Below are positions 24,821-35,195 of a stretch of DNA of 49,566 bases, piece after piece. The notes under the pieces were generated by a model, which was not told where the DNA came from, made no database searches, and was given only the letters and a program-made list of their open reading frames with translations. Origin of the DNA: Candidatus Saccharimonadales bacterium. Lineage in GTDB: Bacteria > Patescibacteriota > Saccharimonadia > Saccharimonadales > Saccharimonadaceae. The stretch is taken from contig DASSDB010000001.1 in NCBI GenBank assembly GCA_035697325.1, positions 1-49,566 on the forward strand, written 5' to 3'. Made by a program: the position numbers and the translations under genes. How positions within the stretch are numbered: position 1 is the stretch's first letter; every line of letters begins with the position of its first letter.

Positions 24821-26020
24821 ATGCCTGAAGTGAAACCAACTGAAATTCAAACATTTGCGAGCATTAAAGTTGTCGGTGTCGGTGGCGCCGGTGGTTCTGC
24901 TGTAAACCGCATGAAAGATGCTGGGCTGGCCGGTGTGCAGTTCATTGCTATGAACACTGACGCCCAGGCACTCCATAACTCAAAAGCCGACGTGAAGATT
25001 CACTTAGGACATTCAACGACGAATGGGCTGGGTGCCGGTGCGGACCCTACGACAGGCGAAGCGGCGGCCGATGAATCGCGTAATGAAATTCGCGATGCAC
25101 TTGAGGGCGCCGATATGGTATTTGTCACCATCGGTGCAGGTGGTGGAACTGGAAGCGGTGCGGGCCCGGTCGTTGCTGAGGTCGCTCGTGAGCTCGGTAT
25201 TTTGGTGGTTGGTGTTGCCACGAAGCCATTTAGTTTTGAGGGTGAAAAGCGCCGCCAAAATGCAGAACGTGCAATCGTTCAACTTGGACGCAATGTTGAT
25301 ACACTTATTACAATCCCGAATGATCGACTTTTGCAGACAATCGATCGTCGTACGCCACTTCTTGAAACCTTCAAGATTGCCGATGACGTGCTTCGCCAGG
25401 GGGTGCAAGGTATTTCAGAGCTTATTACTGAACATGGATTGATTAATCTGGACTTTGCCGATGTAAAGGCGATCATGAGCAATGCAGGCTCGGCGCTTAT
25501 GGGGATTGGCCGTGCAAGTGGCGATGATCGTGCTGCGCAGGCCGCTCAGCAGGCTATCGAATCACCGCTTATTGAAGTTTCGATCGACGGTGCAAAGGGC
25601 GTTCTGTTTAACGTAACTGGTGGTTACGACATGAGCATGAGTGAGATTCAAGAAGCTGCTGAAATTATCACCAGCGCCGTTTCTCCAGATGCAAATATTA
25701 TCTTTGGTGCAACCTTAAAGCCTGAGCTTGAAGATGAACTGATCATTACTGTTATTGCAACTGGTTTTGACAGTGCCTACTTCCACGAGCAAGCTGCACA
25801 GCTTGATGCGGCAACAGCTGAGCCTACGCCAACGGTTACTGAATCTGTCTCTGAAGATGCCGTAAAAGACATCAATATGGAATTGGATCAAACTGATGCT
25901 GCTGCGGCTTTTGCGGATGATACGCCACAGGATATTTGGAATACGCCAGCGCAAGAAGAAGACGAGTCTGACATGCCCGCCTTTCTACGACGCCGCAAGA
26001 AAAAATCAGACGAATCCTAA
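24821..26020 (+). CDS. ftsZ: Cell division protein FtsZ
   Basis: 399 residues; the tubulin-like GTPase that builds the Z ring. GTP motifs: [15 protein letters not shown], the tubulin signature [12 protein letters not shown], and the synergy loop [11 protein letters not shown]. After an acidic linker (about 320-380) comes the C-terminal peptide [12 protein letters not shown], which is the FtsA-binding tail. A complete standard protein. Confidence 0.98.
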
Positions 26021-26038
26021 GGAGGCTTGTAAGTTTGT

Positions 26039-26488
26039 ATGCGCCCAAAACTAAAAATTGGCGATAGTCGTGTGATTGAATCACGAGAATCAAGCGATGG
26101 ATTAACGATTCGTCGTCGGCGGGAATCGTTGGATGGCAAGCATCGGTTCACGACTTATGAAAGAATCGAACGCCCCAACTTAGTTGTGGTGAAAAAAGAT
26201 AGTACTCGTGAGCTTTTTGATAGAGAAAAACTTTCTACGGCCGTGAAGCGATCGGTTGGGAAGTTTTTTGCTTCAGAGATGGAAATTGACGAAATGGTCG
26301 ATCGTGTCGAAGATATGCTTTATGCATCAGGCGATGGTGAGGTCACCTCACGACAGATTGGTGATTTAGTACTCGATGAGTTAGCCGAGCGAAATGAAGT
26401 TGCGTACGTGCGATTTGCTAGTGTATATCATGAATTTAAGACACTTGATGAGTTTGAAGAAATTCTAAAGCAACGTCGCAAGAAATAG
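26039..26488 (+). CDS. nrdR: NrdR-like ATP-cone protein lacking the zinc ribbon cysteines
   Basis: 149 residues, aligned over its whole length with the ribonucleotide reductase repressor NrdR. The blocks VIESRESSDGLTIRRRRES and RFTTYERIE match the usual VxDSR...IRRRREC and RFTTYERxE. The ATP-cone (LVVVKKDSTRELFDREKL to FKTLDEFEEIL) is complete. All four zinc-ribbon cysteines are missing: the N-terminal CPxC is replaced by RPKL, and ECxxC by ESLDG. Zinc-dependent folding of the DNA-binding domain should thus be lost or replaced. GGAGG lies 13 bases before the ATG, a long spacing. Follows ftsZ in the same direction. Confidence 0.85.
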   Translation: MRPKLKIGDSRVIESRESSDGLTIRRRRESLDGKHRFTTYERIERPNLVVVKKDSTRELFDREKLSTAVKRSVGKFFASEMEIDEMVDRVEDMLYASGDGEVTSRQIGDLVLDELAERNEVAYVRFASVYHEFKTLDEFEEILKQRRKK

Positions 26489-26498
26489 GGCCTTAAAG

Positions 26499-26756
26499 AT
26501 GAGGGTGATTATCGTGACAAAAAATGAGACCGACTACGCGCGGACGGTCTCTGAGTATCTTCGTGATTTTACACGCCAAACGGGGCATGAACTTGAAGTG
26601 ATTGATCCTGATACGCCAGATGGCACTTCTTTTTGTAGGGCCTATGACATTGTTGAATATCCAACACTTATCGCCCTAAGTGACGATGGAGCTTTGCAGC
26701 AGCAGTGGAGGGGGTTGCCGCTCCCGACGATTAGCGAGGTGAGTTACTATGTTTAA
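26499..26756 (+). CDS. Small thioredoxin-like protein
   Basis: 85 residues with a probable thioredoxin fold: N-terminal strand MRVIIVTKNE, and DIVEYPTLIALSDDG with the cis-proline strand. It has one cysteine only (FCRAYD) and no CxxC, so it is not a normal dithiol oxidoreductase. It overlaps the VKOR gene by eight bases. VKOR enzymes often work with, or are fused to, thioredoxin-like domains, which supports the fold call. No signal peptide is seen. Confidence 0.65.
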   Translation: MRVIIVTKNETDYARTVSEYLRDFTRQTGHELEVIDPDTPDGTSFCRAYDIVEYPTLIALSDDGALQQQWRGLPLPTISEVSYYV

Positions 26757-27375
26757 ATTTTTAAATAGGGGCAAGAAAAAGGCGACTGAGAGATCAAATA
26801 AGTGGCTTTTTGGTGTGATGCTGGTTTTTGGTGTGGCTGGTCTTATTTCCGCCTTTGACTTGTCTGTAGAGCGAATTCATCTGCTTGAACACCCTGATGC
26901 CGTCCTGACATGCTCAATTAATTTGGTATTAAATTGCGCAACAGTAATGCAGACATGGCAGGCGAGCCTGTTTGGCTTTCCCAACCCATATATCGGGCTG
27001 ATGGCTTACCCTGTAGTAATAACCGTCGCAGTCGCAGGGCTTTCTGGCGTGCAGTTTAAGCGTTGGTTCTTGATTGTGGCAAATATTTGTTATGGACTAG
27101 GAGCTATTTTTGCCTACTGGCTATTCTTTAGTAGCGTGTATGTTATACAAGTGCTTTGCCCATGGTGTCTGGTGGTGACGTTTTCGACCACGCTGATTTT
27201 TGCGAGTTTGACCCACCTTAATTTACGTGAAAATACGTTTCGTTTTTCGGAAAGCATCAATAAAAAAATCCAAGAACTGATGGCGCGTGACGTAGGCAAG
27301 ATTGCGACAGCTGCGTGGATTGTCTTAATGATAGCACTCGTACTCATTAAATTTGGTGATAGTTTATTCTTATGA
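26749..27375 (+). CDS. Vitamin K epoxide reductase (VKOR) family protein
   Basis: 208 residues with four or five membrane helices. Active site CPWC is in VLCPWCLVV, and the loop cysteine pair is in TCSINLVLNCATVM; both are expected of bacterial VKOR. It re-oxidises a DsbA-like partner with quinone and so drives disulphide formation outside the membrane. That fits the cysteine-bearing secreted DUF3152 protein in this window. It overlaps both neighbours (eight bases before, four after). Confidence 0.9.
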   Translation: MFKFLNRGKKKATERSNKWLFGVMLVFGVAGLISAFDLSVERIHLLEHPDAVLTCSINLVLNCATVMQTWQASLFGFPNPYIGLMAYPVVITVAVAGLSGVQFKRWFLIVANICYGLGAIFAYWLFFSSVYVIQVLCPWCLVVTFSTTLIFASLTHLNLRENTFRFSESINKKIQELMARDVGKIATAAWIVLMIALVLIKFGDSLFL

Positions 27376-35152: not shown

Positions 35153-35195
35153 AGAATTAGTATGCTCTATATATAGAGTGTGAGGGAGTAAAAAC

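Follow-up and report, generated by a model that had tools for sequence, protein, structure and literature searches.

The closest described systems are the NrdR proteins of E. coli (structures 9gex, 9fxk and 9fvr) and S. coelicolor (7p37), whose zinc ribbon is presented as the DNA-binding domain in the available parts of the literature. According to the accessible text on the S. coelicolor NrdR-DNA complex, phosphates are touched by Arg 12, 26-29 and 37, and specificity seems to come from D15 and R17 (PMC9110341); the available portion of PMC12176259 states that the ribbons of E. coli NrdR pair via R27, R29 and E42. The NrdR box has the consensus acaCwAtATaTwGtg in the accessible part of PMC4009431, and box pairs with 14-17 bp spacers are bound, as given in the available text of PMC12051234. 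The protein described here resembles these members of the TIGR00244 family in its ribbon plus ATP-cone, its contact and dimer residues and the paired boxes at RNR genes, but differs from both in having none of the four zinc ligands, with an Asp-Gly turn and a hydrophobic residue in their place.

Within the literature searched, which covered few subscription papers, no description of NrdR in Saccharibacteria, Patescibacteria or the candidate phyla radiation was found, nor anything usable on zinc-free ribbons. Zinc-ribbon ribosomal proteins have zinc-free forms, in which a small ribbon keeps its role after ligand loss, and the zinc-free and zinc-containing forms are often paralogue pairs switched by zinc supply. 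In contrast to those pairs, no protein other than the ligand-free form was found here to match the NrdR model along most of its length. A clade without the ligands is a natural experiment on the role of zinc: if the cysteine-free protein binds DNA, the metal would serve to hold the structure together rather than to recognise DNA. The clade would also supply a cysteine-free NrdR well suited to structural studies, and a predicted regulon in Saccharibacteria that can be tested.

Identity of the nrdR gene and its N-terminus

The features below lie in the window, that is, the whole stretch of DNA that was analysed (49,566 nucleotides). Published contacts are those in the accessible text of PMC9110341.

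24821-26020, + strand: ftsZ, 5' neighbour of nrdR (Pfam Tubulin 170.8 bits, FtsZ_C 122.5 bits)
26020-26025, + strand: AGGAGG, possible ribosome-binding site of nrdR, read from the sequence
26039-26488, + strand: cysteine-free nrdR, 149 aa, no Cys in the translation
26039-26062, + strand: residues 1-8, MRPKLKIG, at the place of the first zinc knuckle (CPxC) in the E. coli-numbered alignment
26072-26086, + strand: residues 12-16, VIESR, with E14 and R16 aligned to the published specificity residues D15 and R17
26111-26122, + strand: residues 25-28, RRRR, the published phosphate contacts R26-29 (25/25 and 29/29 rows)
26126-26137, + strand: residues 30-33, SLDG, at the place of the second zinc knuckle (CxxC) by alignment; a turn between strands 23-30 and 36-42 in the predicted model
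26144-26146, + strand: R36, the published phosphate contact R37 (25/25 rows)
26183-26440, + strand: ATP-cone domain, residues 49-134 (Pfam PF03477, 71 bits)

The 149-aa ORF matches TIGR00244, the NCBI equivalog model for NrdR, over its full length with 141.8 bits against a curated cut-off of 124.65, and its nearest solved sequences are the NrdR proteins of E. coli and S. coelicolor. Pfam Zn_ribbon_NrdR was also matched (44.6 bits, cut-off 27.2), with the profile aligned only from position 10. Since two zinc-binding CxxC pairs were not found (0/4 ligands in the ORF and in all 25 rows of the clade described below), the protein was classed not as an ordinary member but as a zinc-free descendant of NrdR; judged from its sequence, it is an NrdR by descent and not an ordinary one by the zinc criterion.

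An earlier note, made from the window's sequence, had called this ORF an NrdR without zinc-ribbon cysteines, with an intact ATP-cone and with ftsZ directly upstream, and all three descriptions hold. Its statement that RPKL replaces CPxC is right as to the substitution but needs correcting at the N-terminus, which is one residue shorter than that of E. coli NrdR. The note had named a sequencing error, a wrong start or a close homologue with all four cysteines as grounds for doubt, and had suggested an alignment across Saccharibacteria, searches for a second nrdR and for NrdR boxes, and structure prediction.

Hidden cysteines were ruled out at the locus itself. In frame 5' of the start, only GTT TGT follows a TAA, neither codon being a start, and reading the first ~40 nt of nrdR in all three frames gives no CPxC; a wrong start or a single frameshift there therefore hides no ligands. 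The relatives are mostly metagenome assemblies, which would suit a decaying gene, an assembly error or a wrong start concealing the cysteines. Against this, the cysteine-free form recurs in 25 genomes and in 79 of the 80 best named loci (of 351), which rules out a sporadic sequencing or assembly error, and the contact residues are constant. This clade-wide pattern contradicts an artefact, which we regard as improbable in the extreme, and the doubt raised in the earlier note was not borne out.

Spread of the cysteine loss

The genome set comprised the window's own genome and 60 relatives (61 in total), with an nrdR match in 57; the match in G047 was the diverged paralogue only. After exclusion of G028 and G049 as fragments, with cysteines in the piece seen, the alignment in E. 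coli numbering held 54 rows. C3, C6, C31 and C34 were absent together from 25 rows and present together in the other 29, without intermediates; the loss is clade-wide. All 25 cysteine-free rows belong to the window's family, and the 29 four-cysteine rows are divided between that family (9) and other families of the order (20). At the place of C34 all 25 cysteine-free rows have Gly preceded by Asp; the place of C31 is taken by Ser, Thr or Ala, and that of C6 by a hydrophobic or aromatic residue in 24/25.

In the named genome collection, 79 cysteine-free loci were found among the 80 most similar loci kept of 351, a similarity ranking that favours this type. They include gut, rumen, reactor and oral Saccharibacteria, amongst others, and the complete genome CP011211.1. 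A locus from an oral single-cell genome (L142) is of the cysteine-free type with one stray Cys near the turn.

In an NrdR tree computed without the ribbon columns (53 rows, 117 columns), the 25 cysteine-free rows lie on one side of a single branch (98/92), the same split appears in 99% of 200 bootstrap trees, and one label change is needed. In an FtsZ tree of 46 rows, computed by a quick method and containing long branches, the cysteine label has to change three times, and starred branches force at least two of these changes. A single origin of the loss is thus favoured, not proved, with the NrdR tree alone in support and the FtsZ tree against it. Close four-cysteine homologues do exist inside the window's family (G022, G027, G026 and others), but they date the loss rather than refute it.

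A search with PF22811 across the phylum gave a match in 252 of the 379 genomes drawn, and in the best rows read every alignment begins at position 1 or 2 of the profile. No zinc-free NrdR outside the family was seen among 25 loci from 24 of the weakest-matching genomes, all 25 loci having both CxxC pairs; further losses elsewhere in the phylum may exist among the middling PF22811 matches. In G033, a cysteine-containing nrdR is broken by an in-frame TAA (G033:C15:14856-15284; L026, L070).

DNA-contact residues and predicted structure

The residues that touch DNA in the described complex have been retained. R17, R26-29 and R37, together with the dimer residue E42, are kept in 25/25 cysteine-free rows. 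Arg or Lys occupies position 12 of these rows, and Glu occupies position 15 in all of them as well as in the 29 cysteine-containing rows. Two alternatives had been raised in the earlier note, a different mode of DNA binding or a role purely as a nucleotide sensor. The lost or relaxed contact surface expected of a sensor that does not bind DNA was not found, and neither option is supported, given the invariance of the contacts in 25/25 rows and the paired boxes that persist 5' of RNR genes, as they do in nine genomes with a single ribbon match.

The conservation pattern also bears on whether a metal could still be held in another way, by Asp, His or the backbone, or between subunits. A conserved Asp at 33 and a mostly conserved Asp at 10 are the points in its favour, but no conserved His or Cys is left in the ribbon, position 35 is variable or missing, and the place of C6 is hydrophobic or aromatic in all but one of the rows, so that substitute ligands appear very unlikely.

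An AlphaFold2 model built from 51 sequences (mean pLDDT 90.7) predicts with confidence a ribbon of strands 10-17, 23-30 and 36-42 plus the ATP-cone, residues 1-10 being the least certain part (pLDDT 74). Structural comparisons of this model placed NrdR first, both with Foldseek (NrdR chains on top, E 1.6e-14 to 2.0e-11) and with VIA-align (Z 14-15), where lower-ranking matches that are not NrdR stem from the ATP-cone. As domain angles vary, superposing the two domains together gives a large rmsd. Being a prediction, the model says nothing on the presence or absence of metal.

Our preferred reading, to which we give a probability of about 0.8, is that the protein is a metal-independent NrdR that has kept its contacts and operators and still represses RNR genes. 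An ancestor within the window's Saccharibacteria family would have lost all four zinc ligands, and the three-stranded ribbon would be held by its own core, with a hydrophobic or aromatic residue at C6, Ser, Thr or Ala at C31 and an Asp-Gly turn at 33-34. With the arginine surface and the specificity residues unchanged, tetramers that carry both ATP and dATP should remain able to clamp a pair of boxes spaced by about three helix turns and keep RNR genes repressed when dATP is high. From these patterns we infer that the cysteine-free protein has no bound metal, folds without zinc, and binds DNA and represses. The available text of PMC4898720 treats the zinc-binding region of NrdR as crucial, which counts against zinc independence; the same text reports DNA binding by E. 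coli NrdR after refolding even when zinc was not added, although binding was better with it.

Gene neighbourhood and RNR genes

Across 80 related loci, matches were found to ftsZ 5' of nrdR in 79, to nrdR in 80 and to the short ORF behind nrdR in 80. This ORF (26499-26756 in the window, 85 aa) starts right behind nrdR and has no Pfam family; next to it is a VKOR gene (26749-27375, Pfam VKOR 116.8 bits), found in 36/80 related loci. The adjacency to ftsZ had been taken in the earlier note as linking dNTP status and division. Relatives from other families whose NrdR retains its cysteines show the same adjacency, often with a ~940-aa RNR gene behind nrdR; as the neighbourhood is ancestral, it was rejected as a new link.

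In the window's genome, class I RNR is encoded on another contig, with nrdA (PRK06539, 1345 bits) followed by nrdB. The RNR gene that follows nrdR in many cysteine-containing relatives is longer, about 920-960 aa, and is probably class II. Both nrdA and nrdB are also present in two cysteine-containing genomes (G033 and G034), and the class I enzyme is therefore not strictly tied to cysteine loss. The cysteine-containing NrdR of sister Saccharibacteria (such as G022, G027 and G026) comes from the same family, with ftsZ 5' and boxes of the same form and spacing; it differs in its four cysteines, in the ~939-960-aa RNR gene behind nrdR and in having the boxes 5' of nrdR.

Paired NrdR boxes upstream of RNR genes

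A 16-base palindromic form of the published consensus was used to search the 480 bp immediately 5' of each RNR frame for two boxes 31-33 bp apart, a spacing set after inspecting sites in this analysis (published 14-17 bp spacers imply 30-33). Three genomes in which PF02867, PF13597 and PF00268 all detected no RNR gene (G013, G016 and G025), and one with its RNR gene at a contig end (G030), were outside this test.

Paired boxes about three helix turns apart were present 5' of 23/23 RNR genes (16 nrdA and 7 nrdD, from 21 cysteine-free genomes) at p <= 0.05 against dinucleotide shuffles, with 21 of the 23 at p <= 0.02 and pair scores of 21-29 out of 32; the NrdR boxes sought upstream of nrd genes are thus in place. 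In the window's genome, the best pair starts 270 bp before the nrdA ATG (about -270/-239), and a second pair lies at -180/-148. As controls, no pair was found 5' of cysteine-free nrdR (0/24), and of 92 other windows in eight cysteine-free genomes 3 gave a pair, none scoring above 20. Additionally, counting one pattern, shaped on sites already seen, over the 25 cysteine-free genomes gave 68 forward matches versus 6 reversed. Two RNR genes of genomes in which no NrdR was found (G003 and G018, 76% and 85% complete) also have box pairs.

Amongst cysteine-containing relatives, where nrdR is followed by an RNR gene, 7/8 nrdR promoters carry pairs of the same form and spacing, the exception being nrdR of G048 (p 0.33). 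Where RNR genes lie apart from nrdR, pairs were found at 9/10, the exception being nrdA of G034 (p 0.33). The nrdR genes of G034, G021 and G004, which are cysteine-containing with no RNR gene directly behind, have no box pair (0/3); box loss at nrdR therefore tracks the move of the RNR gene, not the cysteines.

The cysteine-free protein might instead bind other DNA sites, the boxes 5' of RNR genes being relics or belonging to another factor. Nothing direct speaks for this, candidate targets such as pyrG and greA aside, and it is hard to credit since the box pairs accompany nrdA and nrdD alike, according to the RNR class that a genome has, and the contact residues are the same as in the 29 cysteine-containing rows. 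Repurposing in cysteine-free genomes that lack PF02867 was rejected separately: five of them (G002, G010, G011, G012 and G014) have nrdD with boxes 5' of it.

A four-cysteine paralogue

A second match to the ribbon model is present in 13/25 cysteine-free genomes, the window's own included (G000:C2:8395-8520; L339, ORF 721-1275), so the search for a second nrdR did return a four-cysteine NrdR-like protein, but a diverged one. The copy in the window's genome shares the NrdR-type ribbon with both CxxC pairs and differs from NrdR in its NSR and WRRR motifs and RGRPS tail, in the lack of a Pfam ATP-cone and in a score of 52.7 bits, far below the NrdR cut-off of 124.65. In the 14 copies read, both CxxC pairs are kept, Asn stands at the place of D15 and Trp comes before or starts RRRR, with RGRP near the C-terminus in 12/14.

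Such a protein, or a mixed complex with it, could in principle read the boxes and leave the cysteine-free NrdR only to sense nucleotides, and a strongly diverged paralogue could escape the model in the genomes with a single match. However, paired boxes are present at all 10 RNR genes tested in the nine cysteine-free genomes that have only one ribbon match (p <= 0.004); the simplest view is therefore that the cysteine-free NrdR reads the boxes. The paralogue is likewise present in the cysteine-containing genomes G022, G026 and G033, its own contact positions and missing ATP-cone fit the role poorly, and the DNA contacts are fully conserved in the cysteine-free protein. A division of labour of this kind is accordingly judged unlikely, and a metal-independent NrdR acting at the boxes is preferred.

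The window's genome also has a free-standing 91-aa ATP-cone ORF without ribbon or RNR domain (G000:C2:232614-232889, - strand; L069 315-590; Pfam ATP-cone 32.4 bits, cut-off 25.8).

Possible wider regulon

Boxes outside RNR promoters rest mostly on one-mismatch pattern matches. An NrdR-type box lies 33 bp before pyrG in five genomes, and among the boxes before pyrG, at G000:C2:93996-94011 (L231) and at the pyrG loci L312-L337, those of G000, G001 and G023 form pairs at a distance of 33 bp. The pyrG scan took in 26 loci of 27 matches (one left out), of which 7 had no anchor, 1 was incomplete and 18 were read; a box of >= 12/16 at the same place was found in 8/15 cysteine-free versus 0/3 cysteine-containing loci. 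Five cysteine-free genomes have a box 45-62 bp before greA (G000:C4:299127-299142, L230; L286, L290, L292 and L299). Boxes were also seen before thyA in G029, before glutaredoxins in G031 and G035, and before a ThyX-like gene of G035 that scores 60.1 bits with Pfam Thy1 but does not reach the NCBI cut-off for thyX.

The accessible text of PMC4409342 reports that P. aeruginosa NrdR also acts on topA via a single box, and this is therefore a precedent for targets beyond RNR. Tentatively, the metal-free NrdR may have become, in part of the clade, a wider regulator of nucleotide supply (pyrG CTP synthase, thymidylate synthase, glutaredoxins and greA), its own gene no longer controlled; such a regulator would work even where an epibiont runs short of zinc or is exposed to oxidation of its thiols.

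Within the window, a lone box-like palindrome (13/16) is present at 35164-35179.
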